This document shows, one piece after another, positions 39,149-64,000 of a stretch of DNA of 64,000 bases. The position numbers were made by a program, and so were the translations under genes. The stretch is taken from assembly GCA_002762785.1 (NCBI GenBank), contig PCXY01000005.1, forward strand, positions 495,390 through 559,389. The letters are read 5' to 3'. The DNA is from Candidatus Woesearchaeota archaeon CG10_big_fil_rev_8_21_14_0_10_45_16. Its GTDB lineage: Archaea; Nanobdellota; Nanobdellia; Woesearchaeales; GW2011-AR9. Below the pieces are notes generated by a model that saw only the letters and a program-made list of their open reading frames with translations, had not been told where the DNA came from and did not search any database. Each line of letters begins with the position of its first letter. Position 1 is the stretch's first letter.

Positions 39149-39256
39149 TTTTGCCTCAAAAAATTGAGACTAACATTGGGTCCCTGTTAGGCGTCCTGAA
39201 CGAAGTGAGAGCGCAGCGTGGTCGAGCGATAGCGGAGAAGTTTAATTTTCAAATCC
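39149..39256 (+). repeat. Cassette site E1 (left end of array)
   Basis: 3'-type arm TTTTGCCTCAAAAA at 39149-39162, then ATT, GAGAC and the core TAACA (39171-39175) TT GGGTCCC TGTTA (39185-39189). The following leader contains GAGAGCGCAGCGTGGTCGA and ends GAAGT. The 5' arm of cassette C1 (TTTAATTTTCAAATCC) is at 39241-39256. GTTAGGC at the core matches the integron core-site consensus GTTRRRY. Confidence 0.88.
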
Positions 39257-39688
39257 GTCATACAGTTTAAGAATTTCTTCTTTTAGAACTCCGCCTTTTA
39301 TTTCAATTTTATTAGCACCTTTTCCATTAAGATAATCAGCACTAACAAGAATTTCTTGACCAAATAATTTTGATGATTCTTCTAACGAAACTCCAAAGAT
39401 GATTTTACTAATATTTGCCCACCAAGAAGCAGAGAAACACATTGGGCAAGGTTCACAAGTTGAATACAATGTAACTCCAGATAAATCTTTGGAGTTGAGT
39501 TTTTTACAAGCACTTCTAATAGCATTAATCTCAGAATGGGCAGTCGGGTCAAAATTATTGGTTTCCCCAGATTTGCCAGTTGCAATAACCTGATTATCTT
39601 TAACTAAAACACAACCAAAAGGAAAAGGTGCGGTTCTTGCTTCCTCAATTGCTAACTTCATGAATTTTTCGTCACTCATATAATTCAT
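39242..39688 (-). CDS. Cytidine/guanine deaminase-like enzyme (cassette C1)
   Basis: 148 aa. Zinc site H51-x-E53 (HSE) with C81 and C84 (PCPMC), the CDA/GuaD-type fold. The proton-shuttling Glu is present. It could act on guanine, cytosine or a related base. The stop codon falls inside the cassette's 5' arm. A close relative (158 aa) stands in cassette C11, where HSE is HAE. Confidence 0.9.
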   Translation of the reverse strand: MNYMSDEKFMKLAIEEARTAPFPFGCVLVKDNQVIATGKSGETNNFDPTAHSEINAIRSACKKLNSKDLSGVTLYSTCEPCPMCFSASWWANISKIIFGVSLEESSKLFGQEILVSADYLNGKGANKIEIKGGVLKEEILKLYDGFEN

Positions 39689-39722
39689 TAAGGTGGAGTT
39701 CTTTATTAAAATTACTATTCTA

Positions 39723-39820
39723 GGATTTGAAAATTAAATTACATATAACATCGTCCTGTTAGTTTCTTTGATCCTACAACGTGGGGTCAAACTGCGTCCG
39801 CAGAGTAGTTTTTTAAGAGC
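39723..39820 (+). repeat. Cassette site E2
   Basis: 3' arm of C1 at 39723-39738 (complement of 39241-39256). Core TAACA 39746-39750, centre TCGTCC, TGTTA 39757-39761, one of the shortest cores. The leader departs from the consensus (TTTGATCCTACAACGTGGGGTCAAA, itself a hairpin). 5' arm of C2 (TAGTTTTTTAAGAGC) at 39806-39820. Confidence 0.88.
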
Positions 39821-39974
39821 GGTTTCGAGCGAGCACAGCGAGCGATAAAGTTAGGGAAGCGAGGCGGATTTGGCGTCTTAGAGTAATACGTCTATTACAT
39901 AGTAGTAAAATTATAGAAACTTATAAATACTACTTGTCTTTTGTTATATCAATAATTATTAAGAAGGCGAAAAA

Positions 39975-40256
39975 ATGACTCTAAAAGCAGGAATATTAAC
40001 ATGCTCTCTAACTGAATTAGCTGAAATGTATGAATTAGAATTAAAGAATTATACTCCAAAACAATTACTAGCTGCCGATGGTCAAATAGGTATCATTGAT
40101 CAAGCAGATCTATATCAATCAGCTGAAAATTTATTAAGACAAGCTGGAGAGGTCGTAGGGGCAGAATTTATTGCTAACATGAAGTATCACCCGATGTCTC
40201 CAGCAGATGGCGTAGTACAATATATAGCTTCAGCTATTGCACTTGTTCCAAAATAG
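39975..40256 (+). CDS. Small unknown protein (cassette C2)
   Basis: 93 aa, no family recognised. The C-terminal half (GAEFIANMKYHPMSPADGVVQYIASAIALVPK) is mildly hydrophobic. GAAGGCGAAAAA precedes the ATG, and AGTAGTAAAA with a TATA box (ACTTATAAATA, about 39919) lies upstream as in other cassettes. It is the only gene of the cassette. Confidence 0.65.
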   Translation: MTLKAGILTCSLTELAEMYELELKNYTPKQLLAADGQIGIIDQADLYQSAENLLRQAGEVVGAEFIANMKYHPMSPADGVVQYIASAIALVPK

Positions 40257-40289
40257 AAATATCCAAATCCCCCTTTCTTTTATTTTAGC

Positions 40290-40394
40290 TCTTAAAAAAC
40301 TATTGAAACTAACATCGCGCGCTGTTAAATCCTTTTCCAGTTACGAGCGAAGCGGAGTTCTGGAAAACTGCGTAGCAGAGTTTTTGAAAATGCC
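40290..40394 (+). repeat. Cassette site E3
   Basis: 3' arm of C2 at 40290-40304. Core TAACA 40312-40316, TC, GCGCGC, TGTTA 40325-40329. Leader with a GAGCGAAGCGGA hairpin. 5' arm of C3 (TTTTTGAAAATGCC) at 40381-40394. C2 starts TTAGTTTC and ends GAAACTAA, exactly complementary. Confidence 0.9.
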
Positions 40395-40448
40395 GTCAAT
40401 CAAAAGAACGAAGTGATACATCAAGACACAGAATTAAGGGGCTGGACT

Positions 40449-41075
40449 TTATTTCATCAATCTCTTTTTTATTAAGAAATCTTTGATTATTTTGTATATT
40501 TCTTCATAACCTCTTTTATTTGGATGGACACCATCAACTAATAATTTTTTGTAGTTTAAGTTAGAGATAGTATTGAATAGATTAACATATTGAATTTTAT
40601 TCTTTTGAGCCGATTTTTTGAGGATTTCATCATATTCTTGAATTCTATCATTTGTAAAATATGTATCTTCAAAAGGATTCGTGATATCTTCATCAACAGG
40701 AGTTAAACCAACAACTACAACATTTTTTGTGTATTTTTTTGCAATTTGAATAAGTTTAGTTATATTGTTTTCAAATTTAGCAGGTTTGGTTTCCAATTTA
40801 TTTAGAGATCCTAAACCTCTTGAATCATTTATTCCAATTGCAATCATCACAACAAATTTGTCTCCAGGACGAATATATTTAATCCGAAATTTAATCTCTG
40901 TTTCAAATCGTTTAATTAATGCTGTAGATGTGTCTCCAGGAATTCCCAGATTATATAAGCAATTGTGAAATTCTTGAGACTCAAAATATTTTTTAAGTCT
41001 TCCAGACCAACCAATTGTTGGAGACTCACCTCTACCAAAAGAAATACTATCTCCACAAACTAATATTCCAAACAT
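40449..41075 (-). CDS. Cytoplasmic SGNH/GDSL hydrolase (cassette C3)
   Basis: 208 aa without signal peptide. Block I CGDSISFG, block II Gly in NLGIPGDTS, block III AIGINDS and block V VDGVHPN are complete, so an esterase or thioesterase is expected. It is unrelated in detail to the secreted SGNH protein at 30.4 kb. Confidence 0.88.
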   Translation of the reverse strand: MFGILVCGDSISFGRGESPTIGWSGRLKKYFESQEFHNCLYNLGIPGDTSTALIKRFETEIKFRIKYIRPGDKFVVMIAIGINDSRGLGSLNKLETKPAKFENNITKLIQIAKKYTKNVVVVGLTPVDEDITNPFEDTYFTNDRIQEYDEILKKSAQKNKIQYVNLFNTISNLNYKKLLVDGVHPNKRGYEEIYKIIKDFLIKKRLMK

Positions 41076-41140
41076 AGTGTAAAATAAAAGAGGTTAGTAT
41101 ATAAAAGTTCTTCTAAAAGTCAAGCCCCATTCACAAAATA

Positions 41141-41252
41141 GGCATTTTCAAAAATTGGATTTAACATCGCGCGCTGTTAGGCGTCCCGAGCGATAGCGAG
41201 AGCCTGCAAGGCGTGGCAAAATCTCGAAGAGATTTTGAGTTGCTAGGCAGAC
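41141..41252 (+). repeat. Cassette site E4
   Basis: 3' arm of C3 at 41141-41154. Core TAACA 41162-41166, TC, GCGCGC, TGTTA 41175-41179, followed by GGCGTCCCGAGCGATAGCGA. In the leader the usual GCGCAGCG is replaced by a GCCTGCAAGGC hairpin before GTGG, a compensatory-looking change. 5' arm of C4 (TTGCTAGGCAGAC) at 41240-41252. Confidence 0.9.
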
Positions 41253-41992: not shown

Positions 41993-42029
41993 ATGAAATT
42001 AAAATAGGGGCGGATTTAATAAATCTTTT

Positions 42030-42144
42030 GTCTGCCTAGCAATTTCGCCTAACGTCGGGCCCTTGTTATGTGTCCCGAGCGGAGTTTACGAAGCGAGAGC
42101 GCAGCGGGGTGCGGAGCGTAGCGGAGCAAGTTCGAAAACCTGCC
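42030..42144 (+). repeat. Cassette site E5
   Basis: 3' arm of C4 at 42030-42042. Core TAACG 42050-42054, TC, GGGCCC, TTGTTA ending 42068. Leader CGAGAGCGCAGCGGGG-type. 5' arm of C5 (TTCGAAAACCTGCC) at 42131-42144 plus a second arm GTGCGCACAAAC at about 42161-42172. C4 ends CGCCTAA, complementary to its start TTAGGCG. Confidence 0.9.
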
Positions 42145-42173
42145 GTCTTCAATATTAAGAGTGCGCACAAACA

Positions 42174-42806: not shown

Positions 42807-42863
42807 AAATCTAATAAAATTTCCATTGATTAAAAACTTTTTGTTTGTGCGCACTTACCAAAA

Positions 42864-42971
42864 GGCAGGTTTTCGAATTACACATAACATCGGGGCCTGT
42901 TAATTGCCCCGAGCCGATAGACGAGAGCGCAGCGTGGTCGAGGCGAAGCCGAAGAAGTTTGAGATTTGGGC
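42864..42971 (+). repeat. Cassette site E6
   Basis: 3' arm of C5 at 42864-42877, with the outer arm GTTTGTGCGCAC near 42843-42855. Core TAACA 42885-42889, TC, GGGGCC, TGTTA 42898-42902. Leader with GAGAGCGCAGCGTGGTCGA and a GGCGAAGCC hairpin, then GAAGT. 5' arm of C6 (TTTGAGATTTGGGC) at 42958-42971. Confidence 0.92.
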
Positions 42972-42990
42972 GTATCAATATTAACTTCAG

Positions 42991-43020: not shown

Positions 43021-43044
43021 GAGTGGAGATATCCTAAATTTATA

Positions 43045-43452: not shown

Positions 43453-43474
43453 ACCTTTCGCTTTCTATTTTTTA

Positions 43475-43587
43475 GCCCAAATCTCAAATTGCAATTAACG
43501 CCGGGCCCTGTTAAACTCCCCGAGGCGAAGCCGAGAGCGCAGCGTGGTCGACCGACTGAAAGGAGGGAGAAGTTGAAAAAGTCGGCC
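43475..43587 (+). repeat. Cassette site E7
   Basis: 3' arm of C6 at 43475-43488. Core TAACG 43496-43500, CC, GGGCCC, TGTTA 43509-43513. Leader CCCCGAGGCGAAGCCGAGAG then CGCAGCGTGGTCGACC, ending GAGAAGT. 5' arm of C7 (TTGAAAAAGTCGGCC) at 43573-43587. Confidence 0.92.
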
Positions 43588-43630
43588 GTCAATGGTAATA
43601 TTTATATAAATTGATTAAATTATTCTTCAT

Positions 43631-44153: not shown

Positions 44154-44265
44154 GGCCGACTTTTTCAATTGAGTTTAACATCGGGGCCCCTGTTAAGTCG
44201 TGTGAGCGAAGCGAAAGTCTGCAAGACGGCACCGAGCCAAAGGCGAAGGAGTTTTTTCTTCTGCG
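44154..44265 (+). repeat. Cassette site E8
   Basis: 3' arm of C7 at 44154-44168, directly after the stop codon. Core TAACA 44176-44180, TC, GGGGCCCC, TGTTA 44191-44195. Leader with GAGCGAAGCGAAAG and a GTCTGCAAGAC hairpin in place of GCGCAGCG. 5' arm of C8 at about 44250-44265 (GTTTTTTCTTCTGCG). Confidence 0.88.
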
Positions 44266-45465: not shown

Positions 45466-45600
45466 AGTTATGTGTAATTGAGTGTCGTTTAGCGCGCCGT
45501 CTGTTGGGGGAAGGTATTTAGAGATTTAAATTTTTAGCAGAAAAAATGCTGGAGAAAATCTTTGATTTTCGTAAGCACAGTATGACGCAGGACACTATCC
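45466..45600 (+). repeat. Vestigial cassette site E9
   Basis: A run (GTTATGTGTAATTGAGTGTC, then GTTTAGCGCGCCGTCTGTTGG) looks like a decayed or rearranged core. It is followed by GCAGAAAAAATG (partial match to the expected C8 3' arm) and a hairpin (GAAAATC/GATTTTC). Only the right part is intact: GGACACTATCC at 45590-45600 is inverted at 46127-46137. C8 and C9 therefore seem fused into one unit. Confidence 0.55.
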
Positions 45601-46126: not shown

Positions 46127-46386
46127 TGGATAGTGTCCGAGTAATATTGCACATAACATCGCAACTATGCGAAGTCTCAAAAGGGTGGTATCGTGATGAG
46201 GCACCCCACAGCTCGTGCAGGTTAGGGTAAATTTATTTTGAAAATTATAAATTTGGTTTGAGATTTGGGAGAGGCGGAAGGAGTTACGTAGTGGCGACTG
46301 GAGCGAAACCGTATAGTTGCTGTTATATGATTCTGACTACGTAGTGGGAAGAATGCGTAGTGAAACGGAGCAAGTTTTTTGTGACC
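46127..46386 (+). repeat. Cassette site E10 with long structured centre
   Basis: 3' arm of C9 at 46127-46137. TAACA 46154-46158, TC, then a 160-nt centre closed by GCAACTATGCG/CGTATAGTTGC, then TGTTA 46321-46325. The centre contains GAAGTCTCAAA...TTTGAGATTTGGGA, repeating the GAAGT-stem...stem-ATT grammar of the cassettes. It is nearly identical to the centre of E15. 5' arm of C10 (AGTTTTTTGTGACC) ends at 46386. Confidence 0.9.
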
Positions 46387-46524
46387 GAACATACAGACTG
46401 GTGCCGTCTTTAATCTTCATTTATTCTTTATTGTTTTATTTTAGAAAGGGGGACTTAAGAGTTTTAAGAAATAAATGGTTTTTTGTAGGGAAATATTTAT
46501 AATTGAACCTCCATTTTAACTGCT

Positions 46525-46893
46525 ATGCCTAATATTAGAGAGATATTAACCATTACAGGAATAGTGGCTGGAGCAGTAGCTTTTGTAGCTTCTGGAGTTT
46601 ATGCTTTAAACAAACCTATTTATGAAGGTCCAATAAATGTTCCAGGTGTAAATAGAGTAGTGGTTAGTCCAGAGTATATGTCTCATACAATAGATTGTTT
46701 GCATTTAGATGGAACTACTGTTAATGTTTTTTATGAAGATGGTAGTGAAGCTAGTGTAAGAGATTACAATGGAAATTTTCAGATTGATGGTAAAGATACA
46801 GTTCAACCAAGCACAAAAAAAGATCTCCCAGCAATATTGGAAGCTACAGCTAAAAAAGGATTGGAAACTGGGGCTTTGAGGATTACTTTCTAA
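46525..46893 (+). CDS. Small membrane-anchored protein (cassette C10)
   Basis: 122 aa. One N-terminal helix (ILTITIGIVAG-like, residues 7-27) and a small beta-rich domain (VNRVVVSPEYMSHTIDCLHLDGTTVNVFYEDGSEASVRDYNG). No family recognised. The flanks of this cassette are almost the same as those of C24, whose protein is unrelated. Confidence 0.68.
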   Translation: MPNIREILTITGIVAGAVAFVASGVYALNKPIYEGPINVPGVNRVVVSPEYMSHTIDCLHLDGTTVNVFYEDGSEASVRDYNGNFQIDGKDTVQPSTKKDLPAILEATAKKGLETGALRITF

Positions 46894-47067
46894 GCAACCA
46901 GATGATTATTCGCTCTAAATTTCTTAATGGAATTAATCATTATTTTCTAAGTAGGTTGTTTGCCCTCATTTTCTCTTAAGTCCCCCCTAATTTTTAATAA
47001 TTCATAAAGTCAAAAGAATATAGGCACCAGTCATTAAGTTCTTAGAGTTCAAATTCATCTTCCTAAA

Positions 47068-47182
47068 GGTCACAAAAAATTTCATATAACGTCAGGGCCC
47101 TTGTTATGTGTCCCGAGCGTAACGCAGTGAAGCGAGAGCGCAGCGGGGTCGGAGCGAAGCGGAGAAGTTTAATTTTCAGATC
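47068..47182 (+). repeat. Cassette site E11
   Basis: 3' arm of C10 at 47068-47081, with further mirrored segments GGCACCAGTC and CTTAAGTCCCCC upstream. Core TAACG 47087-47091, TC, AGGGCCC, TTGTTA ending 47106. Leader GAGAGCGCAGCGGGGTCGGAGCG. 5' arm of C11 (TTTAATTTTCAGATC) at 47168-47182. Confidence 0.9.
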
Positions 47183-47645
47183 TGTCATATAGTTTGATAA
47201 CTTCTTCTTTTAGAACTCCGCCTTTTATTTCTATTTTGTTAGCACCTTTTCCATTAAGATAATCAGCACTAACCAGAATTTCTGGACCAAATAATTTTGA
47301 CGATTCTTCAAGCGAAATTCCAAAGACGATTCTACTGATATTTGCCCACCAAGAAGCAGAAAGACACATTGGACAGGGTTCGCAAGTTGAGTATAAGGTC
47401 ACACCTAATAATTCTTTGGAATTTAGTTTTTCACACGCACTTCTAATTGCATTAATTTCTGCGTGTGCAGTTGGGTCAAAATTATTTGTTTCGCCAGATT
47501 TACCAGTAGCAATAATTTGATTATCTTTAACCAAAACACAACCAAATGGAAAAGGTGCGTTTTTTGCTTCCTCGATTGCTAATTTCATGAATTTTTCATC
47601 GTTCACAGTATTAGTTAAGGCGGAGTTCTTTTTAATGTTTATCAT
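47169..47645 (-). CDS. Cytidine/guanine deaminase-like enzyme, second copy (cassette C11)
   Basis: 158 aa, over most of its length nearly the same as the C1 protein (DEKFMKLAIEEA...PFPFGCVLVKDNQ, HAE, PCPMC). The N-terminus is different and ten residues longer. The canonical HAE replaces HSE of C1. Gene and arms were duplicated together, so this is a cassette duplication rather than a gene duplication. Confidence 0.9.
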   Translation of the reverse strand: MINIKKNSALTNTVNDEKFMKLAIEEAKNAPFPFGCVLVKDNQIIATGKSGETNNFDPTAHAEINAIRSACEKLNSKELLGVTLYSTCEPCPMCLSASWWANISRIVFGISLEESSKLFGPEILVSADYLNGKGANKIEIKGGVLKEEVIKLYDRSEN

Positions 47646-47650: not shown

Positions 47651-47769
47651 GATTTGAAAATTAAATTACAGATAACATCGCTCGCTGTTATATCCGTCGG
47701 AGTGAAACGGAGACCGAGGGTTAGTGCAACGTTCGGCGAAGCCGAAACCCGAAGAGTAATTTTTTGGGC
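47651..47769 (+). repeat. Cassette site E12
   Basis: 3' arm of C11 at 47651-47665 (one mismatch to its 5' arm). Core TAACA 47673-47677, TC, GCTCGC, TGTTA 47686-47690. Leader with GTTAGTGCAACGTTCG and a GGCGAAGCC hairpin. 5' arm of C12 (TAATTTTTTGGGC) at 47757-47769, then the second leader module (ATCAA...ACACATCAAGAACAAGAATTAAGGGC) to 47818. Confidence 0.9.
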
Positions 47770-47862: not shown

Positions 47863-48660
47863 ATGAATAGAGAATCTGATGGAGAAAGAGCAGTTCGTGT
47901 TGCTTTAGATAATTTAGGATTAAAGTATGAACAGGAGAAAGAGATTAATTTCTTGAAGGGGGATTTTAAAGGAAGTAGGCGAGCAGATTTTTTCTTACCT
48001 AAATACAATATCTATATTGAATATCTTGGCGGTTGGGATAAAAAAGATACTGAAGAACAAAAGAAAGAAAGGGCAAGATATAATGAAAAAAAAGATGCCT
48101 ATAGTTTAAATGATTTAAAATGTATTTACATTTATCCGAATCAACTGAATTATGTATCTAATGTTATAAAGAAAGGAATTGAGAAATTTGGACATAAAGC
48201 AGAGCCACTTCCTATTTACAAAAATCCTCTTGCAATTTCAATAACGACTGCAATTATTTTTCTCCTATTATCACCTTTATCTTTTACAATATTCTTGACA
48301 TTATTGTTCATAAATATTATTTTAATAATTATTTTTAGCTTAACAAGATGTCCTAATTGTAAAAGAGTGTTTGCAAAAGACCATGTAAGCACAGATTTCG
48401 AAAGAATAGAGAAACGACCTTGGGAATATAGGATAGAAACAAAATATCTCTATTCTGATGGTTCTTATAAAAATAGTACATATACTGAGTGGAGAACAAG
48501 AATTGAAAGAATCAAAATTTTAAAAAATACAAAGGAGTGTAAATTTTGCGGGTACAAATGGACAGAGAATGAAGAAATTAATCTCGATAAAGCAACACGA
48601 CCTCAAACGGTTTATTCCAGAAGAACAAATTATAGAAATCCTGCAACACGAACATATTGA
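47863..48660 (+). CDS. PD-(D/E)XK-like nuclease fused to two helices and a zinc ribbon (cassette C12)
   Basis: 265 aa. N-terminal ~105 residues: SDGERAVRVALDNLGLKYEQEKEINF...GSRRADFFLPKYNIYIEYLGGWDKKD, fitting the E...D...ExG/K pattern of Vsr/DUF559-type nucleases. Then two membrane helices (about 120-160). The C-terminus has CPNCKRVF and CKFCGYKW, a split zinc ribbon. A membrane-tethered nuclease suggests defence or DNA uptake; this is inference. Confidence 0.72.
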   Translation: MNRESDGERAVRVALDNLGLKYEQEKEINFLKGDFKGSRRADFFLPKYNIYIEYLGGWDKKDTEEQKKERARYNEKKDAYSLNDLKCIYIYPNQLNYVSNVIKKGIEKFGHKAEPLPIYKNPLAISITTAIIFLLLSPLSFTIFLTLLFINIILIIIFSLTRCPNCKRVFAKDHVSTDFERIEKRPWEYRIETKYLYSDGSYKNSTYTEWRTRIERIKILKNTKECKFCGYKWTENEEINLDKATRPQTVYSRRTNYRNPATRTY

Positions 48661-48695: not shown

Positions 48696-48791
48696 GCCCA
48701 AAAAATTATTGGATATAACATTGGGTCCTGTTAGTTACTTTGACCCTACAACGTGGGGTCAAATTTCGTCCGAAAAGTCGAGAATGAGTCC
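48696..48791 (+). repeat. Cassette site E13
   Basis: 3' arm of C12 at 48696-48708, with outer arm GATTTAATTGCCCC at 48671-48684. ATTGGATATAACA, TT, GGGTCC, TGTTA ending 48733. Leader TTTGACCCTACAACGTGGGGTCAAA as in E2. 5' arm of C13 (TCGAGAATGAGTCC) at 48778-48791 followed by the second leader module to 48838. Confidence 0.9.
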
Positions 48792-48903: not shown

Positions 48904-49215
48904 ACATCCAAATATGATATTAGAAACAATACTGCTGTAGTTGGAGTATATTGATTAAAATGAAATCTAGCTTATTTAAAAAATTTATTCATCAAAATTG
49001 AGATATACGATACACAAATATGACTGTATTAGATAAAATTAGGAAGAATACAACTCGCATTTCATGTAAAAATATGAACATTTTAAAAATTGACCTCCAG
49101 ATTATCCTATTTCTTGTTAATATTCAAGTTTGATTTATCATAAAAACCTTTATAAAAAAGGCTAGTTCACATCCAAATATGATATTAGAAACAATACTGC
49201 TGTAGTTGGAGTATA
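48904..49215 (+). repeat. 47-bp direct repeat, each copy just after a TATA box (cassette C13)
   Basis: An identical 47-nt sequence beginning ACATCCAAATATGATATTAG lies at 48904-48950 and 49169-49215. Each copy follows a TATA-like box by about 25 nt (GTTATAAATTT near 48871; CCTTTATAAAAA near 49147), so both would sit at a transcription start. The 658 nt between the C12 gene and the first C13 gene hold E13, the second leader module and these repeats; no protein gene is seen. Confidence 0.8.
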
Positions 49216-49326
49216 AAATAAAAAATGAAAAAAATTTATGAATATTAATTTATTACCATAATATTTAAATACTAGTATGCTTTTTTACTTTAAATTAGCC
49301 CGAAAAGGGGCTGGAGGATGATATTA

Positions 49327-49851
49327 ATGGATAATCAAAAACTAAAAGAAGAAATAGAACAGGCTAAGGAAACTGTAGAGGGTTTACCAGAACCTTTTAA
49401 GTCAAAAACTTATGATAAGCTTTTGGAGAGAATTCTTGATGCTGCTTATGGGGCAAAATCTCAAAAAAAAGCAGGAAATGTTGCGAGAAGTAAGAAAAAT
49501 GTGGCTCCACGAGAAGACGACATTGTGCAAAGAGTCATTAATGATCTAGATAGGAGTAAATATGAAGAGATCCATAACCTAAAAGTCTTGGAAAGATCCC
49601 TATACCTATTAAGGATTGTAAGAGAAAAACTAAAAATAGATGGCCTTAGTCCTTCTCAGATTGCATCCATCTTAACTGATAAGTTTAGAATTAAAACAAC
49701 TAAAGAAGCTGTTTCAATGTCTTTGATGAAAACACATTATGTAGATAGGATTCCTACAGTTAATAGGGGTGCTCGAACATATCAATATAAGCTAATGCAA
49801 AAAGGTGAGGATTATTTAAAAAAGGTATTAGAGAGCGAAGAAAATGAATGA
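49327..49851 (+). CDS. wHTH-like protein, first gene of C13
   Basis: 174 aa from ATG 49327 (GGAGGATGATATTA places GGAGG about 10 nt before it; ATG 49318 overlaps the Shine-Dalgarno). The N-terminal helical motif LPEPFKSKTYDKLLERILDAAYG has relatives in the next gene and in C19. The C-terminal half (LSPSQIASILTDKFRIKTTKEAVSMSLMK...YQYKLMQKGEDYL) is a winged-helix-like DNA-binding domain. Overlaps the next gene by 8 nt. Confidence 0.72.
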   Translation: MDNQKLKEEIEQAKETVEGLPEPFKSKTYDKLLERILDAAYGAKSQKKAGNVARSKKNVAPREDDIVQRVINDLDRSKYEEIHNLKVLERSLYLLRIVREKLKIDGLSPSQIASILTDKFRIKTTKEAVSMSLMKTHYVDRIPTVNRGARTYQYKLMQKGEDYLKKVLESEENE

Positions 49852-51505: not shown

Positions 51506-51655
51506 GGACTCATTCTCGATTGTAACTAACATCGGCGGCCTGTTAAACTCCCCGAGCCGAAGGCGAGAGTGCAACGTGGTCGACTGACCGAAGGGAAGGA
51601 GAAGTACTAAGATTTCACGAGGCGAAGCCGAGACTTAACTAGGGACTTTTTGGAC
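51506..51655 (+). repeat. Cassette site E14
   Basis: 3' arm of C13 at 51506-51519, with outer mirrored TTAAATAACGACCCCCC at about 51463-51479. Core TAACA 51527-51531, TC, GGCGGCC, TGTTA 51541-51545. Leader GAGAGTGCAACGTGGTCGACTG. Inner 5' arm TACTAAGATTTCA near 51606 and outer arm GGGACTTTTTGGAC at 51642-51655 for C14. Confidence 0.9.
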
Positions 51656-52041: not shown

Positions 52042-52315
52042 GTCCAAAAAGTCCCGTCAATAAAATTGAAATCTGAGTATTGAGTTTAACATCGCAACTA
52101 TGCGAAGTCTCAAAAGGGTGGCAACTGAGATGAGGCAAACCACAGCTCGTGCAGGTAAGGGTAAATTTATTTTGAAAATTATAAATTTGGTTTGAGATTT
52201 GGGAGAGGCGCAAGGAGTTACGAAGTGGCGACTGGAGCCGAACCGTATAGTTGCTGTTAAGTTCTCCCGACTACGAAGTGGGAGGGATTGCGAAGCAAAG
52301 TAAAATTTGAGTTCT
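52042..52315 (+). repeat. Cassette site E15 with long centre
   Basis: 3' arm of C14 at 52042-52055. TAACA 52087-52091, TC, a ~160-nt centre closed by GCAACTATGCG/CGTATAGTTGC, TGTTA 52255-52259. It is nearly identical to the centre of E10 although the cassettes on either side differ. 5' arm of C15 (TAAAATTTGAGTTCT) at 52301-52315. Confidence 0.9.
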
Positions 52316-52390: not shown

Positions 52391-53200
52391 ATGGGAGTAG
52401 AATCAATTTGTTTGAGGGAAGCCGCACATCTTGTTAAAAGGTCACCAAAATATTGGCATCTTGTAGGTAAACTTTATTTAGAAGGTTTAGCTAATCCTCA
52501 TTCTGCTAAAGTCTTTAGAGCAGCATATTTTTTTTGTCGTCATATTGATGATGTTCTTGATGGTGATAGGTCAGTAACAGTTAATCCTGAAGCCTATGTT
52601 CGTGATATTTTAAGTGCTGTAGAAAATGGACATCAAGGACCGCCAATAGTTGAATTATACAAATTTGCTATTGGTCCAATTAAAGAAATGGCTACTGAAA
52701 CCGATGATCCTAAATCTTATTTTATTAGAGTTATTAAAGATGCCATGCTTTTTGATTTTGAGAGAGCAAAAGAAAGAAGAGTTTTAACAAGAGATGAGAT
52801 TGAACAATATTATGATGATACTTTTACTCCTGTAACTAATATTGCACTAATTATAGCTGGTTCACAGCAAAGAATAAGGGATGTTCCAGAGATGGTAACA
52901 ACTCAAGGACACATCTATACTATTCGTGATTTGACAAGGGATTTAGAACAAGGAATAATTAATGTTCCTAGTGAAGAATTACAAGAAGCTGGATTAAATG
53001 GAAAACATCTTTCTTACGATGTAGTTAGAAGAAATCCAGTTTTATCTTCTTGGATGGATAATGAGGTGGAGAGGTATAGCGGTGAGTTAAAAGTAGCTAG
53101 AGAGAAATTGTCAGATGCGGCTTCCCGAAAAGTTTGTTTCCCATTAATTTGGCAAATGAATACATACTGTAAATTGTATCAATTAGGACTTCATAAATAG
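52391..53200 (+). CDS. Squalene/phytoene synthase-like enzyme (cassette C15)
   Basis: 269 aa. First aspartate motif RHIDDVLDGD (about 50-59), second IRDLTRDLEQGIINVPSEEL (about 176-195), both as in head-to-head prenyl synthases. Expected to join two prenyl diphosphates. With the UbiA-like protein of C5 it brings isoprenoid functions into the array. Confidence 0.9.
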   Translation: MGVESICLREAAHLVKRSPKYWHLVGKLYLEGLANPHSAKVFRAAYFFCRHIDDVLDGDRSVTVNPEAYVRDILSAVENGHQGPPIVELYKFAIGPIKEMATETDDPKSYFIRVIKDAMLFDFERAKERRVLTRDEIEQYYDDTFTPVTNIALIIAGSQQRIRDVPEMVTTQGHIYTIRDLTRDLEQGIINVPSEELQEAGLNGKHLSYDVVRRNPVLSSWMDNEVERYSGELKVAREKLSDAASRKVCFPLIWQMNTYCKLYQLGLHK

Positions 53201-53216: not shown

Positions 53217-53325
53217 AGAACTCAAATTTTATTGAACTTAACATCGCGCTGTTATCTACCCCGACGACCAAAGGGAGGAGAGCGCAGCGTGGTCGGAGCG
53301 TTAGCGACGAAGTTTTTTAGTTGTC
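53217..53325 (+). repeat. Cassette site E16
   Basis: 3' arm of C15 at 53217-53231. The shortest core: TAACA 53239-53243, TC, GCGC, TGTTA 53250-53254. Leader GAGAGCGCAGCGTGGTCGGAGCG. 5' arm of C16 (TTTTTTAGTTGTC) at 53313-53325 plus outer GGTGCTATC near 53336. Confidence 0.9.
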
Positions 53326-53443: not shown

Positions 53444-55105
53444 ATGACTATTCCAAGACCTGATATTTTGTATTTGGGAGAAGCAGTTCCGACTAATACG
53501 GTGTGGGGATTTAGTCCTAAGGCTGAAGAACAACCTCAAGTTTACATTGATGAAATGATGAGTGCTTTGTTTATTCAGCCAGACGATTCTTTTGATCATC
53601 CAGAGATGAGAGATGATTTAGAATTAGATACTTTAGTTGATAAAGCATTTGAGCCTGATTATTCTAAAGAATTTGTAAGAAAAGCATTTGCTTCAGCACC
53701 AACAAGAAGAGAAGTAATTTTGGATAGGCAACAGACACTAGAAACTTTGTTTCAGAATCCAGAAGAAAGAAGAAGAGTAGGAGAAGTTGCTCAATCAATT
53801 AATGGTATTGTAAAAACATTATTGGATATTGATAAACAAAAAAGATTACGCAACTTCGCTTATACTGGCGGTTTATTGGCAGCCGAAGTCACACTTCTTT
53901 CTGGGTATGTTGATGTTGTTAATTCTCTTTGCGGATTGCCAGAATCTTCTGAAGCATTGCGCCAGTTAGGGAATTTTGGAAGAGCAGTTAAGGAAAGTGA
54001 TAATTTTAGAGAATTGGAGCAATATTCTAATGCGTTCAGAAACAGATATACATTTACTTTAGAAGTTGCTGTTGATGCAGTTGGTGCTGTTACAGGAATG
54101 AATATTGTTGGAATTGATGAAAGCGGTCGTTTTACAAAAAGAGGATTGGTTCAAAATCTTCAAGGAAGAAAAGTTTTAGGTCGTTTAGGTGTAGATGATT
54201 ATGGAATTGTTGCTCAAGCAATTGATAAGATAGTAAACAAAAACCTAAAACAGATTAGTGAAACATCATTTTTACTTGGGCCACTTGACTTTTATCTCTC
54301 TGCTTTGAATTTCTATGATCAAATGGAAGCAAAAGGAGTTGAATTAACACTTCCAGAAATAACAGCGATGGAAGAAAGAGCAACATTTGTGCCCGGCGTA
54401 AGAAATCCTCTTTTATTGTATAAGAAAGGGGAGAGTAAGATAGAGAGAGGTAGTGATATTGTACCAAATGATGTATCTTATGATGATAAAAGAAGAGTAA
54501 GAATCATTTCTGGTCCAAATAGTGGGGGGAAAACAGTTTATATTAAGGCTGCTGGAATTGCAACAGTTCTTGCTCAAAATGGCATGAAAATTCCTGCACA
54601 AGTTGATGGACAACCATGCCGAATGAGTGTTGTTGATGGATTATATACTGTTTTTGTTTCACGAGAAGAAACAACTGCTGATGCAGGGGGACAATTAGAA
54701 TATCAGGCGAAACAAGTTAAAGGAGTTTTGAAGAAAATAACCCCATATAGTCTAGTCTTATTTGATGAAATTGGAAGAGGGACAAGTGAAGATGAAGGGA
54801 CGGAATTTTGTTTTGATAATATTATCCACCCTCTCGCTTTAAGCTCTGAAGGACCAATTGGCTCTGCAGCTTATTTTTCAACCCATTTACATCATTTTGC
54901 AGAAAGAGCTGATCCTGTTGATGGAGTAGAAAATTTTCAGGCTGAAATTGTGAGAGGAGAAGGAGAACAACTAACACCAACATATAGAATTGTTTCTGGC
55001 AGAGCTGGAAAAAGTTACGCCAAACTTGTTGAGGGGAGAGTTGGTTTAGGTATAGAGAATGTTGATGGTTTAATTAGGGAACGAAGAGAAAAAGGAACGC
55101 TTTAA
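53444..55105 (+). CDS. MutS-family ATPase without mismatch-binding domain (cassette C16)
   Basis: 553 aa. The C-terminal MutS domain V has Walker A GPNSGGKT (about 356-363), Walker B with signature FDEIGRGTSEDEGT (about 439-452) and the His switch STHLHHF. The N-terminal half has lever/clamp-like helices but no MutS domain I. It belongs with solo MutS-like ATPases rather than the repair protein. It may move on branched DNA; the role is unknown. Confidence 0.87.
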   Translation: MTIPRPDILYLGEAVPTNTVWGFSPKAEEQPQVYIDEMMSALFIQPDDSFDHPEMRDDLELDTLVDKAFEPDYSKEFVRKAFASAPTRREVILDRQQTLETLFQNPEERRRVGEVAQSINGIVKTLLDIDKQKRLRNFAYTGGLLAAEVTLLSGYVDVVNSLCGLPESSEALRQLGNFGRAVKESDNFRELEQYSNAFRNRYTFTLEVAVDAVGAVTGMNIVGIDESGRFTKRGLVQNLQGRKVLGRLGVDDYGIVAQAIDKIVNKNLKQISETSFLLGPLDFYLSALNFYDQMEAKGVELTLPEITAMEERATFVPGVRNPLLLYKKGESKIERGSDIVPNDVSYDDKRRVRIISGPNSGGKTVYIKAAGIATVLAQNGMKIPAQVDGQPCRMSVVDGLYTVFVSREETTADAGGQLEYQAKQVKGVLKKITPYSLVLFDEIGRGTSEDEGTEFCFDNIIHPLALSSEGPIGSAAYFSTHLHHFAERADPVDGVENFQAEIVRGEGEQLTPTYRIVSGRAGKSYAKLVEGRVGLGIENVDGLIRERREKGTL

Positions 55106-55721: not shown

Positions 55722-55839
55722 GACAACTAAAAAATTGTAGATAACATCGGGCCCTGTTAAATCCGCCGACGAACGAAGTGAGGAGAGTGCAACGTGCCCG
55801 AGTGAAATGAAATGGAGCGAAGGAGTTTTTAGAAATGCC
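55722..55839 (+). repeat. Cassette site E17
   Basis: 3' arm of C16 at 55722-55734, outer GATAGCACC at about 55661. Core TAACA 55742-55746, TC, GGGCCC, TGTTA 55755-55759. Leader GAGAGTGCAACGTGCCCGAG. 5' arm of C17 (TTTTTAGAAATGCC) at 55826-55839. The 324 nt between genes hold only this site and the mirrored arms. Confidence 0.9.
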
Positions 55840-56371: not shown

Positions 56372-56532
56372 GGCATTTCTAAAAATTGGATTTAACACCG
56401 CAACTTGCTGTTATATCCCCCGACCAGAATTTTTAACGACCATAGGGAGTTTAAAAATGGCGGGAGAGCGCAGCGTGGTCAAGGTTTAAATTCCCGAAGG
56501 GAATATTAAACCGCAGAAGTCTCTAATTTTCC
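56372..56532 (+). repeat. Cassette site E18
   Basis: 3' arm of C17 at 56372-56385, outer GCCCCT near 56353. ATTGGATTTAACA, CC, GCAACTTGC, TGTTA ending 56413. The leader carries extra hairpins (ATTTTTAACGACC...TTTAAAAATGG; TTTAAATTCCC...GGGAATATTAAA) around GAGAGCGCAGCGTGGTC. 5' arm of C18 (TCTCTAATTTTCC) at 56520-56532, outer CCTGAACAC after it. Confidence 0.9.
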
Positions 56533-57876: not shown

Positions 57877-57994
57877 GGAAAATTAGAGATTGGATATAAC
57901 ATCGCTCGCTGTTAAACTCTCCCAAGAGGGATTGAATTTTAGTGCAACGTTCCGTAGCGAAGCGGAGGAAAAATTCAAAGTAAATTTGAAGTCC
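57877..57994 (+). repeat. Cassette site E19
   Basis: 3' arm of C18 at 57877-57889, outer arm GTGTTCAGG at about 57850. ATTGGATATAACA, TC, GCTCGC, TGTTA ending 57914. Leader GTGCAACGTTCCGTAGCGAAGCGGA. 5' arm of C19 (TAAATTTGAAGTCC) at 57981-57994 and the second leader module to about 58045. Confidence 0.9.
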
Positions 57995-59509: not shown

Positions 59510-59622
59510 GGACTTCAAATTTATTGAGTTTAACATCGGCATGCCTGTTAGCCGACCCGACGACTGAAGGGAGGAGAGCGCAGCGTGGCTCGGAGCGTAG
59601 CGGAGAGAGTTTTTTTACTGCC
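59510..59622 (+). repeat. Cassette site E20
   Basis: 3' arm of C19 at 59510-59523, outer GGTTGAGTCGCCCC at about 59484. Core TAACA 59531-59535, TC, GGCATGCC, TGTTA 59546-59550. Leader GAGAGCGCAGCGTGGCTCGGAGCG. 5' arm of C20 (TTTTTTTACTGCC) at 59610-59622. Confidence 0.9.
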
Positions 59623-59671
59623 GAAAATTCGTTGTTATCACAGTTGTTGAAAAATAAGTTATTAACTTTCA

Positions 59672-59700
59672 AGTAGTAAAAGAAACGAAAGATTTATAAA
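59672..59700 (+). promoter_or_regulatory. Promoter of cassette C20, mirrored at the stop codon
   Basis: AGTAGTAAAAGAAACGAAAGATTTATAAA in parts: AGTAGT 59672, CGAAAG 59686-59691, TTTATAAA 59693-59700. AACGAAAGATTTAT (59684-59697) is inverted at 60078-60091, covering the stop codon. The same block occurs before the C23 gene (62063-62091). Confidence 0.82.
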
Positions 59701-59724
59701 GTGCTAATTAATTCTAATATTACA

Positions 59725-60081
59725 ATGAAACAAGTTCAAGAAACAGATTGGGCAAGAAGAACCAAATATGATAACGGAGTTACTGTTACAAGACAGAAAC
59801 ATCCAATTCTTAATCTAGCATTAACTGCTGGTGGTGCTCTTGCTATGTATGGAATTGGAAGATTAGTTGGTGAAGGAGTAGACCACATTCCATACCTAAA
59901 TGAATGGATTCCAGCAGCAGTAAATTACGTTTCTGGAATTGATGTTTCTGGAAATATTGATGGATTAATGGGTCTTCTTGGCGGATTATATGGAGTAAGG
60001 GAATCTGGAATAAAACTTGATGACGAAACATTAGAATTAGAAAAACTAGCACTTACACCAATTCATTTTAACAAGAAATAA
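59725..60081 (+). CDS. Small membrane protein (cassette C20)
   Basis: 118 aa from ATG 59725, which fits the TATA box; an in-frame GTG exists at 59701. Two hydrophobic segments (ILNLALTAGGALAMYGIGRLVG and IDGLMGLLGGLYGV) separated by PYLNEWIPAAVNYVSGIDV. No family recognised. Flanks as in C23. Confidence 0.68.
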   Translation: MKQVQETDWARRTKYDNGVTVTRQKHPILNLALTAGGALAMYGIGRLVGEGVDHIPYLNEWIPAAVNYVSGIDVSGNIDGLMGLLGGLYGVRESGIKLDDETLELEKLALTPIHFNKK

Positions 60082-60222
60082 ATCTTTCGTTCTATAATTT
60101 TTATTTTTCAACAATTTCGTTAAAATTTTGTTAGGCAAAGTTACGAAGTAATTTTGTAAGTTTTCTTTTATGATTTTAACGAAGATAACAACATTAGAAT
60201 TTTCGGTTTACCGACGCTAGGA

Positions 60223-60457
60223 GGCAGTAAAAAAATTTTGGCTAACATCGGGCTTAAGGGAAGTTTTTTCTTTCCTCGTGGAGCATTTTGAGGCATCCCA
60301 CAAAATGCGGAACAGAGCTGAAAGAAAAAATTTGGGTCGGAGAAACCTGCAAGGTTTCGGAGCCCTTTAAGCCCTGTTATGCTCGTCTGACCGAAGGGCA
60401 GACCTAAAATTTAGTGCAACGTTCCGAAGGAAAATTTTAGAGTTTTTTGGGGCAAAA
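60223..60457 (+). repeat. Cassette site E21 with long centre
   Basis: 3' arm of C20 at 60223-60235. TAACA 60243-60247, TC, a ~127-nt centre closed by GGGCTTAAGG/CCTTTAAGCCC, TGTTA 60375-60379. Inside, GAAGTTTTTTCTTTC...GAAAGAAAAAATTTGGG follows the GAAGT-stem-ATT rule, with a GCATTTTG/CAAAATGC hairpin and an AACCTGCAAGGTT hairpin. 5' arm of C21 (TTTTTTGGGGCAAAA) at 60443-60457. Confidence 0.9.
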
Positions 60458-60516
60458 TTTCATCTAGCACGAAGTGCCTTCAAGTTAAAAGAATAAAGGG
60501 CAAGAATAAAAAAAAT

Positions 60517-60750: not shown

Positions 60751-60851
60751 ATTTTATTACCTCCATGAATTATAAATATGTAGGTAGTATTTAAAGCTTT
60801 CGTTTTATAGTCATTTGTAAGTAGTAAATCTGCTTTTTGCCCTTTACACTA

Positions 60852-61055
60852 TTTTGCCCCAAAAAATTGAGCATAACATCGGAATTTAACGAAGTTTGAT
60901 TTTCCCTCGTGGAGCGAAGCGGAACAGAGCTGGAAAATCAAATTTGGGAAAAATGCGAGCCGAGCATTTTTCCGTTAAATTCCTGTTAAACGACCCGAAC
61001 GAAGTGAGAGCGCAGCGTGGCACGAGGCGAAGCCGAGTGAGTTCAAAAAAGACTC
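60852..61055 (+). repeat. Cassette site E22 with long centre
   Basis: 3' arm of C21 at 60852-60866. TAACA 60874-60878, TC, a centre closed by GGAATTTAACG/CGTTAAATTCC, TGTTA 60984-60988. Inside are GAAGTTTGATTTTCC/GGAAAATCAAATTTGGG and AAAAATGCGAGCCGAGCATTTTT. Leader GAGAGCGCAGCGTGGCACGAGG. 5' arm of C22 (TTCAAAAAAGACTC) at 61042-61055. Confidence 0.9.
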
Positions 61056-61101
61056 ATCAAGGACATAGTCCAATCAAAATATAGAATAAAAAGCCCCTCC
61101 C

Positions 61102-61734: not shown

Positions 61735-61812
61735 AATGCAATTATAAGAAACGCATTTAATATAAATATATCGAATGAAATATGCAAGGGGAGGGGCTTC
61801 TTCAACAACTTA

Positions 61813-62013
61813 GAGTCTTTTTTGAATTTCGTTTAACATCGCGATTAAGAGAAGTTGGATTTTTGAGAGTGGAGCGTAGCGACCTCCAAAAATTCAATTT
61901 GGGAAAATTCCTGCAAGGGATTTTCCTCTTAATCGCTGTTAAACTCCCCGAACGAAACGAAGTGGAGTGAGAGTGCAACGTGGTCGACCGAAGGGAGAAG
62001 TTCGGGGCTCGCC
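61813..62013 (+). repeat. Cassette site E23 with long centre
   Basis: 3' arm of C22 at 61813-61826, outer GGGGAGGGGCTT at about 61788. TAACA 61834-61838, TC, a centre closed by GCGATTAAGAG/CTCTTAATCGC, TGTTA 61937-61941. Inside are GAAGTTGGATTTTTG/CAAAAATTCAATTTGGG and a GGAAAATTCCTGCAAGGGATTTTCC hairpin (in parts). 5' arm of C23 (TTCGGGGCTCGCC) at 62001-62013. Confidence 0.9.
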
Positions 62014-62062
62014 GAAAATTCGTTGTTATCGTAGTTGTTGAAAAATAAGTTATTAACTTTTA

Positions 62063-62091
62063 AGTAGTAAAAGAAACGAAAGATTTATAAA
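62063..62091 (+). promoter_or_regulatory. Promoter of cassette C23, nearly identical to that of C20
   Basis: AGTAGT 62063, CGAAAG 62077-62082, TTTATAA 62084-62090; AACGAAAGATTTAT (62075-62088) is inverted at 62485-62498, again over the stop codon. Confidence 0.8.
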
Positions 62092-62113
62092 GCATTGATT
62101 TATTCTGATTAGT

Positions 62114-62488
62114 ATGGCAGAAAAAGAAAGTTCAGGAAGTAGCAACCCATTAGGTTGTTTAGCTCCAGCAGTAGGAATTGCAGGATTGGTTGCTACACTA
62201 GCATTAGGGCCAATGGATCTTGGAAGATCTGTGTATAATCAAATTATTGGAGATACTCCAATTCTAAAAAGAGAACTTTTAGATTATACACGAAGAGATA
62301 TTCAAAGAAGCAATCCTAAATATACTGTTCAACAGGTTGAGGGTAATCTTGCTAATGAATTAGGTTACAAACTTGAAGGAGATAAAATAGACCCTCAAGA
62401 TGTGAGTATTGAAAAGTTATGGGATGCTTCTGAAGATCATGCAAGATCATGGTATCAGAAATGGGTTTGGCCCTCTTTAGATGAATAA
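62114..62488 (+). CDS. Small membrane protein (cassette C23)
   Basis: 124 aa. One N-terminal hydrophobic segment (PLGCLAPAVGIAGLVATLALGP) and a charged helical C-terminus ending ARSWYQKWVWPSLDE. Unrelated to the C20 protein although the DNA before the promoter and after the stop is nearly the same. No family recognised. Confidence 0.68.
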   Translation: MAEKESSGSSNPLGCLAPAVGIAGLVATLALGPMDLGRSVYNQIIGDTPILKRELLDYTRRDIQRSNPKYTVQQVEGNLANELGYKLEGDKIDPQDVSIEKLWDASEDHARSWYQKWVWPSLDE

Positions 62489-62630
62489 ATCTTTCGTTCT
62501 ATAATTTTTATTTTTCAACAATTTCGTTAAAATTTCGTTAGGCAAAATTACGAAGTAATTTTGTGAGTTTTTCTTTTATGATTTTAACGAAGATAACAAC
62601 ATTAGAATTTTCGGTTTTAACCTCTGTGGA

Positions 62631-62901
62631 GGCGAGCCCCGAATTGAGTTTAACGTCCGAATTAACCGAAGTTTTCAATGGGTGGTATCTTGAATGAGGC
62701 ACCCCACAGTCAAGAACAGGTTAGGGTAGATTTAATTAACGAAGTGTAAAAATCTGGATGAAAATTTGGGCGTAGTGGAGTGACTTACGTAGTGGGGAAC
62801 GGAACGAAGCTGGTTAATTCGTGTTATATGACCCGAACTACGAAGTGGAGAGGGGAAGGTTTAACTCTGAAAGAGATTAAACCGCACAGTTTTTTGTGAC
62901 C
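62631..62901 (+). repeat. Cassette site E24 with long centre
   Basis: 3' arm of C23 at 62631-62643. TAACG 62651-62655, TC, a ~165-nt centre closed by CGAATTAACC/GGTTAATTCG, TGTTA 62822-62826. Its inner part shares GGGTGGTATC and GAGGCACCCCACAG with E10 but has different outer stems. 5' arm of C24 (AGTTTTTTGTGACC) at 62888-62901, then GACTGGTGCC and GGGGGACTTAAG mirrored after the gene. Confidence 0.9.
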
Positions 62902-63081
62902 GAGCATAGAGACTGGTGCCGTTTTTAATCTTCATTTATTCTTTATTATTTTATTTAGAAAAGGGGGACTTAAGAAAAAGACATGATGTTCATTTTTGTT
63001 TCATTATATTTATAAACTGGAACCTCTAGATTAGATTAATTAGGTGATTCTAGATGATTAACACTATTTGGGGGAATAAAA

Positions 63082-63603
63082 ATGTATGATCAAACAAAAA
63101 GTTATGAAGTAAATGTAGCTGAATTACTTTCTGGAGTTTCATTAGCTAGTGATTTAAATACTGATAATATGAGGGCCACACATATTAGGGAATTACGTAG
63201 CGAAGCCCTATACGACGTATTTGGAGCAATTTATGATGAATTTAAAGGAGATGTTTTTCCTAGATTGGAGGGTAAAGGAATTGTTTTAGAAGGAATGTTC
63301 TCGAGAGAATCTCGCTCTAGTCCTACTTCTTTTAGTTCAACTTCTTATCCCGCTCCTCTTGGTATGATTCTGACTCCTGAAAATTTAGGTATAAATCGAA
63401 CACCAAATTTATCTCAACCACATTACGTAAGATTTAATACAGAAGATTGTGTTAGTCTACCTGCAAGTAGAGATTATGCTGGTTTAGATTGGTTAATAGG
63501 GACATTTGTTTCAGAAACAGATCCGGAATATGTTGAGAAGGGAAGACGTAATGTTAGTGGTTGGAAGGAATGGCAAATGAAAGAACAAAGGCGAAGTGCT
63601 TAA
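63082..63603 (+). CDS. Unknown protein (cassette C24)
   Basis: 173 aa, hydrophilic, with a Ser-rich middle (SRESRSSPTSFSSTSYPAPLG). No family recognised. GGGGGAAT lies 7 nt before the ATG. A short upstream frame starts at 63055 and its stop TGA overlaps the start of this gene (ATGTATGA), so translation coupling is possible. A TATA box (ATATTTATAAAC) lies near 63006. Confidence 0.68.
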   Translation: MYDQTKSYEVNVAELLSGVSLASDLNTDNMRATHIRELRSEALYDVFGAIYDEFKGDVFPRLEGKGIVLEGMFSRESRSSPTSFSSTSYPAPLGMILTPENLGINRTPNLSQPHYVRFNTEDCVSLPASRDYAGLDWLIGTFVSETDPEYVEKGRRNVSGWKEWQMKEQRRSA

Positions 63604-63724
63604 CGAAATTGATTTCTTTTTTATTATACTTTTTTCTTAAGTCCCCCTAATTTTTAATAATTCATAAAGTTAACAGAATAAAGGCACCAGTCAAAGTTGT
63701 AAAGTTCAAATTCATCTTCTTAAA

Positions 63725-63926
63725 GGTCACAAAAAATTTCATATAACGTCGCAACTATGCGAAGTCGTTTAAGTTCGGAGCGAAGCGGAGAACATTAAAC
63801 GATTTGGGAAATGTCCCGAGCTGAGGGACTTTCCGCATAGTTGCTGTTAAACGAGGGTGAGGAGCGCAGCGACGAAAGCGCAGCGTCCCCAAGCGACCGA
63901 AGGGAGCGCAGAGTTTTCTTACTGCC
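63725..63926 (+). repeat. Cassette site E25, beginning of C25
   Basis: 3' arm of C24 at 63725-63738. TAACG 63744-63748, TC, a centre closed by GCAACTATGCG/CGCATAGTTGC with GAAGTCGTTTAA...TTAAACGATTTGGGA inside, TGTTA 63845-63849. Leader GAGGAGCGCAGCGACGAAAGC. The 5' arm of C25 (TTTTCTTACTGCC) ends at 63926. No gene is visible in the last 75 nt. Confidence 0.88.
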
Positions 63927-64000
63927 GAAAATCCAGTTAGTGCCGTAGTTTTTGCCGACATTATAGTTAATAGATTACTGCTTTAGCAGAGTAGAGTTTA

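Follow-up and report, generated by a model that had tools for sequence, protein, structure and literature searches.

A tandem gene-cassette array in a Woesearchaeota genome, probably an integron served by a Xer-type tyrosine recombinase

Layout of the cassette array

The window analysed in this work is a stretch of 64,000 nucleotides from Candidatus Woesearchaeota archaeon CG10_big_fil_rev_8_21_14_0_10_45_16 (contig PCXY01000005.1, here C3, positions 495,390 to 559,389), and its last 25 kb, starting at 39171, are occupied by gene cassettes separated by short structured sites (array A, 39163..64000, + strand). The original prediction, made from the letters of the window, had proposed 25 sites in one orientation and about 24 cassettes. 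The former was a fair count, as there were 24 intact sites, all on the + strand (24/24), and one decayed site, also on the + strand; the tandem cassettes were confirmed, and the complete ones between intact sites numbered 23. As had also been proposed, the array extended past the window: it reached the end of contig C3 (559,389 bp) and was still running there, its right end lying beyond the assembled sequence.

Measured from TAAC to GTTA, sites 1 to 8 were located at 39171..39189, 39746..39761, 40310..40327, 41162..41179, 42050..42068, 42885..42902, 43496..43513, and 44176..44195, respectively, sites 10 to 13 at 47087..47106, 47673..47690, 48716..48733, and 51527..51545, and sites 15 to 19 at 53239..53254, 55742..55759, 56393..56413, 57897..57914, and 59531..59550. 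The cores of these sites (17/24) were 16-21 nt long, unlike ordinary attC sites, as the first reading had noted. The other seven had a long centre of 106-176 nt, namely site 9 (46154..46325), site 14 (52087..52259), site 20 (60243..60379), site 21 (60874..60988), site 22 (61834..61941), site 23 (62651..62826), and site 24 (63744..63849). The right half of the decayed site (GTTATGTG, 45467..45474) was still present within cassette 8 and matched the CACA before site 9, an assignment made partly by eye.

The site consensus of array A was AATTG-NNNN-TAACATCG-palindrome-TGTTA-NNNN-CCCCGA-leader, which contained the TAACA and TGTTA arms around a palindromic centre and the leader that had been recognized at the outset. 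The right-hand box fitted GTTRRRY in 12/24 sites, bearing out the earlier remark that it often does, and the left-hand box, read on the other strand, in 9/24, where 3 were expected in each case. In cassette 1, for example, the leader (39190..39255, + strand) contained a terminal arm, TTTAATTTTCAAATCC, whose partner lay before site 2. Among the leaders there were 12 GNA three-base loops on the + strand and 1 on the other strand (mean of 500 shuffles 2.3, maximum 8); three-base loops of any kind (34) were not above shuffles (mean 26.4, maximum 43), and only GNA stood out. GNA loops are unusually stable in single-stranded DNA.

Of the 24 sites of the window, a rule-based finder recovered 22, and it called nothing on the opposite strand; the two that it missed, at 39746 and 42050, were entered by hand for the comparison of units. 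Over all loci collected at that stage, the finder made 144 calls against 1 on the same sequences reversed, a total in which loci overlap and sites are counted repeatedly. Across 18 short sites, 17 from the window and one from contig C2, the core pairs were kept in 99.2% of cells, which was reached in 0/500 shuffles, and 2 core pairs had changes on both sides, a number equalled by 49/500 shuffles. An Rfam scan of the array gave two sub-threshold matches, both within genes, and none at the sites, and no curated family fitted them; the terminator or REP (repetitive extragenic palindromic) family named beforehand as a refuting outcome was thus not seen. GC-rich hairpins of similar look were present elsewhere in the genome.

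Recombinase genes and the platform site

The genome (98.3% complete, 6 contigs) encoded three tyrosine recombinases recognized by Pfam models. One of their genes, intB on contig C2, had a terminal site 200-320 bp to its left, depending on which start codon is taken, and this site closed a second array (array B), which had 9 sites with the minimal core TAACGATGTTA in locus L007 and continued further left. Another, intA on contig C5, lay 165 nt from the contig end, and those 165 nt contained a platform site, AATTGAATT-TAACACGTATTAAGC. The platform motif ATTG-NNNN-TAACACCTATTAAACG, or a near variant, was found 82-205 nt before the matched coding stretch at 21/21 loci, with TAAC intact at 17/21; these loci were the 19 intA homologues, L122, and L125 (Woesearchaeota Bin_423), with L121 excluded, and the motif is descriptive because it was drawn up after the loci had been read. 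A site analogous to attI was therefore present before the gene, which for the window's own array we infer only.

At 48 recombinase loci, the finder called 41 sites upstream on the same strand as the gene, none downstream, and 1 on the opposite strand. The numbers were 31, 0, and 1, respectively, at the 27 intB-type loci, 13 of which had at least one site, and 10, 0, and 0 at the 21 loci of the intA set, 6 of which had sites. The intA set included L121 and L122, whose recombinases were found only with the intB query; without both, the numbers were 7, 0, and 0 in 19 loci. Type A sites were present upstream of intB-type genes as well. Of the 25 array pieces taken from this genome and its relatives, 4 had the two site types in a single array.

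Where a recombinase gene adjoins an array, it is on the right-hand side and is transcribed away from it; the + strand of the window then corresponds to the bottom strand in the integron view. Read on the other strand, the order was the recombinase gene, transcribed away, a platform ending G-TTA, and cassettes of the form TTA-NNNN-CAAT ... NNNN-TAACA-centre-TG, which is the order of an integron. The integron layout of the original prediction therefore held for an archaeal integron-like array, in an orientation that is the reverse complement of that first reading.

Three further observations concern these loci. In array B, a 12-bp tandem repeat was located within a cassette gene (L007:7616-7675). 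Near intA, at about 8727-8900 of L008 (G000:C5), there was a hairpin-rich element with long outer arms, and its other strand contained GAGCGCAGCACGG, which by eye resembles the leader motif GAGAGCGCAGCGTGG. A lone site on contig C2 (L006:9114-9687; G000:C2:169114) was accompanied by a cassette-like DUF559 gene, with no second recognized site seen; it may have arisen by insertion outside an array or be a remnant. The joining of C3 and C5 in one contig of 638,281 bp was also considered, and was weakened by the apparent placement of a window gene on a contig of at most 568,430 bp.

Complementary ends and the unit boundary

The 4 nt that follow GTTA at the start of a cassette and the 4 nt that precede TAAC at its own end were exact reverse complements of each other in 19/23 cassettes of the window. 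This complementarity was found in 0/24 cases within a single site and in 24/506 of the other pairs, and 100,000 permutations reached at most 9. Over the 25 array pieces the rule held in 66/96 cassettes (within-array shuffles, mean 20.6, maximum 36 in 20,000), and in 50/75 when the window array was left out; 124 of the sites in these pieces lay on one strand, and 3 of the 127 called lay on the other. Outside the 4-nt boxes, the tail that best matched the head of a cassette was its own in 16/23 cassettes, in agreement with the cassette-specific second stem of the original prediction. The arms were mostly 12-19 nt long and started exactly 3 nt before the 4-nt box in 14/23 cassettes. Cassette 8, which holds the decayed site, failed both arm tests.

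Recurring units were compared within and between genomes. Two unit copies in array B matched over 903/903 nt at 93.5%, from TAAC to TAAC, with unrelated flanks, and a cassette of G010 matched one of G045, which belongs to another genus of the same family, at 91.8% over 1,032 nt, again from TAAC to TAAC; the Rpb2 genes of these two genomes were 74.1% identical over 1,889 nt. The flanks of matching units were unrelated except for the shared ATT and core letters. For window cassettes 9 and 14, centre and leader recurred in G028 and G035 at 88-95%, from TAAC on and stopping before the gene. These alignments place the unit boundary at TAAC and make centre and leader part of the right-hand cassette. 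The centre and the leader that had been described as following the core are accordingly the attC end of that cassette in the integron view.

Modelled joints of a cassette's own ends folded at -24.8 kcal/mol, compared with -14.6 kcal/mol for joints with the tails of other cassettes, and the own joint was better in 16/17 cases. The opposite strand folded at -22.9 kcal/mol, and the + strand was better in 16/17 modelled joints. In these computed folds, the second stem and the core would form one long hairpin when the own ends of a cassette are joined, as they would be in an excised circle.

Some cassettes shared their ends and differed in their genes. Cassettes 9 (46154-47090) and 23 (62651-63747) began with 325 nt that were 74% alike and ended with 122 nt that were 91% alike. 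Cassettes 19 (59531-60246) and 22 (61834-62654) had in common a 134-nt stretch near the end (97%) and a 99-nt stretch ahead of the gene (91%). Both pairs may reflect gene exchange inside shared ends.

Affiliation of the recombinases

The number of residues between two conserved motifs was 59-65 in 40 intA- and intB-type proteins (19 intA, L125, and 20 intB) and 104-109 in 16 bacterial IntI. L121 and L122 were left out of the protein comparison and the tree; the match of L122 runs across a stop, and L122 was for that reason dropped from the alignment as well. B_L083 and n_L148 were dropped before the tree. When aligned in two pieces to the solved IntI4, IntA lacked 45 residues and IntB 41 residues. 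The IntI insertion of roughly 44 residues was absent from the recombinases adjoining such arrays. Among the 78 proteins of the tree, the 16 IntI formed one clade (100/100), with the intA and intB rows outside it; the intA rows grouped at 83/90 with L125 and at 100/95 without it, and the intB rows at 100/99, except for B_L098, an artefact row with a badly trimmed frame.

With the NCBIfam IntI model, the three recombinases of the genome scored 194, 216, and 63 bits, all below the cut-off of 265 bits. With NF040815 of NCBIfam (cut-off 220), IntB passed at 235.5 and IntA was just below at 210.5. Among solved structures, the archaeal XerA entries 5hxy and 4a8e were closest to IntA in both sequence and fold, and XerA was also closest to IntB in sequence. 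In a Foldseek search with a model of IntA (mean predicted local distance difference test score 82.7, predicted template modelling score 0.61), the XerA chains were best and IntI4 was next. None of this corresponds to an IntI with the IntI-specific domain.

Distribution and turnover in relatives

Homologues of intB were found in 111/145 genomes (E<=1e-20, a limit that also admits intA) and of intA in 27/145 (E<=1e-55), and model R1, built on short sites, detected sites in 45/145 genomes at E<=0.01, each count including this genome. Among 371 genomes drawn from the phylum, R1 gave 25 at E<=1e-4, this genome included, and all but one of them were in the same order. The minimal core occurred 104 times in 30/145 genomes, against 4 occurrences of a reversed control pattern. 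Among the 120 homologues listed for one gene of the window, those with a name were assigned to Woesearchaeota, Nanoarchaeota or Nanoarchaeia, or were labelled simply "archaeon", in keeping with a woesearchaeal host. L125 was the one named intA-type host among the matches listed from a single short-motif scan of genome contigs, which also gave outgroups. Among the matches listed from viral contigs, the minimal core marked 80 loci with one match each and none with an array, and these were taken as chance.

Two pairs of genomes, each within one genus, were close enough to be compared at the platform. G042 and G047 shared 96% identity over a stretch of 2.6 kb starting at the integrase gene and 86% over the 254 nt holding the platform site, and the match stopped at TAAC, with 55/60 letters alike to the right and 19/60 to the left; a 665-nt stretch further left in G042 recurred in G047 at another distance (78%). 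For G020 and G039, the corresponding values at the platform were 49/60 on the right and 23/60 on the left. In both pairs, close relatives agreed on the right-hand side of the platform TAAC and differed on its left-hand side, and the same gene order in relatives, which had been set out as a refuting outcome, was not what these pairs displayed. Of the 21 intA-set loci, 10 had a contig end less than 500 bp upstream of the gene and none had one within that distance downstream; such crowding upstream is expected where strains differ.

Short repeats of a similar kind were also noticed in candidate-phyla bacteria. In L124 (Peregrinibacteria), GAACCGCATATACAGTGTTG occurred twice, about 3500 and 1674 nt upstream of a Xer-like recombinase gene, and in L141 (Magasanikbacteria), GGAACCGCCTATACCCTGTTG occurred about 520 nt upstream of such a gene. 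Perhaps these belong to related arrays, as judged from the repeats.

Cassette genes and their expression

Of the 27 listed cassette genes of at least 80 aa, 26 were scanned with Pfam, the one left out (47169-47645, cassette 10) being a related copy of the cytidine deaminase family gene of cassette 1 (39242..39688, - strand). Matches were found in 13/26, and the other 13 had none. The families were cytidine deaminase, GDSL lipase, HIT, UbiA (below its cut-off), histidine phosphatase, AIRS, 2'-5' RNA ligase, DUF4145, SET, squalene/phytoene synthase (cassette 14, 52391..53200, + strand), MutS domain V (cassette 15, 53444..55105, + strand), metallophosphatase, and methyltransferase. Of 24 cassette genes tested for direction, 13 were on the + strand and 11 on the - strand, and 15/24 were preceded by a TATA-like box, in every case at -28 to -33, compared with 16% of random positions. 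This enrichment indicates that the cassettes likely carry their own promoters, and array A does not consist of mostly promoterless genes in one orientation.

PADLOC gave weak matches for 47863-48660 of cassette 11 (PDC-S69 and a PD-(D/E)XK protein) and for 49318-49851 of cassette 12 (LmuA, E = 7e-4), which are possible defence cargo on the basis of these matches. Cassette 12 also contained, in non-coding sequence ahead of the first gene, a 45-nt stretch that was seen by eye twice, at about 48905-48950 and 49170-49215.

Proposed mechanism

We consider it quite probable that array A works as an integron served by a Xer-type archaeal tyrosine recombinase without the IntI-specific domain, the recombination itself being deduced from the arrays and their genes. 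The Xer-type recombinase would excise cassettes as circles, and these would be inserted at the platform site beside its own gene, with cutting presumably at TAAC (GTTA on the other strand). The folding strand would be the + strand of the window, that is, the bottom strand in the integron sense; integrons recombine the bottom strand about a thousand times better, according to PMC8946536. The joined ends of a cassette, with its own arms, 4-nt boxes, and core, would form one long hairpin that marks the whole cassette, and the cassettes would be expressed from their own promoters. The window array may continue across the assembly gap to contig C5, at whose end the platform site and intA lie; intB on contig C2 is the other candidate.

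Several results weigh against this integron reading. The tyrosine recombinase sought by the original prediction was absent from the window contig C3. In another assembly, intA is apparently on a contig of at most 638,281 bp and a gene of the window on one that does not exceed 568,430 bp, so that the two need not be joined there. The sequence available downstream of the recombinase genes was shorter than that upstream (51,741 vs 173,784 nt for the intB type and 6,400 vs 76,533 nt for the intA set), and no recognized site was found in 7/20 intB-type and 5/11 intA-set loci with >1.5 kb upstream. The own-end rule was broken in 4/23 cassettes of the window and 30/96 overall, and 6/124 sites were complementary within the site itself. 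Two covariation measures were not clearly above shuffles, 49/500 and 193/500 of which reached them, and the strand preference in folding was small (-24.8 vs -22.9 kcal/mol). The IntI insertion is not fully conserved in the integron-like subgroup described in PMC8138268, so that its absence alone does not exclude kinship.

A wider claim, to which we give even weight for and against, is that DPANN archaea have a second kind of integron, in which Xer-type integrases of at least two families (IntA and IntB) take the place of IntI. The cassettes of this integron would be self-checking, as their arms would complete the recombination hairpin only when the circle is whole and correctly closed, and the integron would be common in this archaeal order and carry self-expressed genes between genera. 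Integrons are the model platform of gene capture, and they are searched for with models of IntI and attC. If the wider claim is true, the integron principle is not tied to IntI, DPANN archaea with their small genomes have a route for gene turnover, and the purpose of the IntI-specific domain is back in question. The sites are short enough for direct assay. In the open-licence PubMed Central literature searched, we found no description of Xer-type cassette arrays.

Alternative explanations

That the sites are structured repeats, such as terminators or REP-like hairpins, between ordinary genes and unconnected with gene gain would agree with their being hairpins, with the GNA-loop mini-hairpins of the leaders, and with the similar hairpins elsewhere in the genome. 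However, the complementary boxes lie at opposite ends of one unit and not within a site, whole units recur exactly in other genera, and the sites fit no Rfam family, which leaves this explanation hardly any probability. Independent small transposons with terminal inverted repeats, nested beside one another without a platform, would account for the cassette-specific inverted arms flanking each gene and for the lone site on contig C2 away from an array. The ends of transposons are shared between copies, whereas the arms vary between cassettes, and the head-to-tail order on one strand, linked to recombinase genes, is also at variance with independent elements; we regard them as very improbable.

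Two explanations keep a recombinase acting on modules. Gene modules moved by a chromosome-dimer resolvase at dif-like sites, as with pdif, would fit Xer-like recombinases and short, palindromic sites. In dif modules, the sites are in alternating orientation, whereas here the sites did not alternate (124 vs 3 over the 25 pieces), and a platform site beside the gene, own-end boxes, and arms were present; such modules are improbable, if less so than transposons. An ordinary archaeal integron, or a cluster of attC sites lacking integron-integrases (CALIN), with unusually short attC sites and an IntI acting in trans, is somewhat more plausible, and still unlikely in our view. The layout, the own-end complementarity, and the GTTRRRY boxes speak for it, as does the fact that CALINs are the commonest form in archaea according to PMC9668308. 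Against it, none of the three tyrosine recombinases of this nearly complete genome reached the IntI cut-off, and those adjoining arrays had neither the IntI insertion nor a place in the IntI clade. In 11-16 bacterial IntI loci, 3 and 4 attC candidates were obtained, too few for an attC model.

Comparison with known systems

Read as a Xer-served integron, array A can be set beside four known systems. Archaeal XerA is the nearest solved relative of IntA and IntB, and differs in being described as a chromosome-dimer resolvase, in a review (PMC8371274) that does not contain the word "cassette". The pdif modules of Acinetobacter plasmids likewise have a Xer-type recombinase and gene modules between short sites; here, unlike in those modules, site orientation does not alternate and a dedicated recombinase lies beside the array. 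Integrons and CALINs resemble the present arrays in the integrase gene transcribed away from the array, the adjoining platform, the tandem units with sites in one orientation, the complementary ends of each unit, and the GTT-containing box at the boundary. They differ in that the recombinase here has no IntI insertion and falls outside the IntI clade, that the cores are mostly 16-21 nt with arms around each gene outside the core, and that the genes run in both directions (13/11) with TATA-like boxes before 15/24; integron cassettes are described as generally promoterless in PMC8946536. The integrons reported from archaea in PMC9668308 came from 75 metagenome-assembled genomes with six IntI and 539 attC sites found with IntegronFinder, and the longest array on one contig had 12 attC sites. 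They share with array A the form of archaeal cassette arrays, with Nanoarchaeota among the hosts, and differ in that they were detected by IntI or attC models and that their IntI carry the IntI-specific domain.

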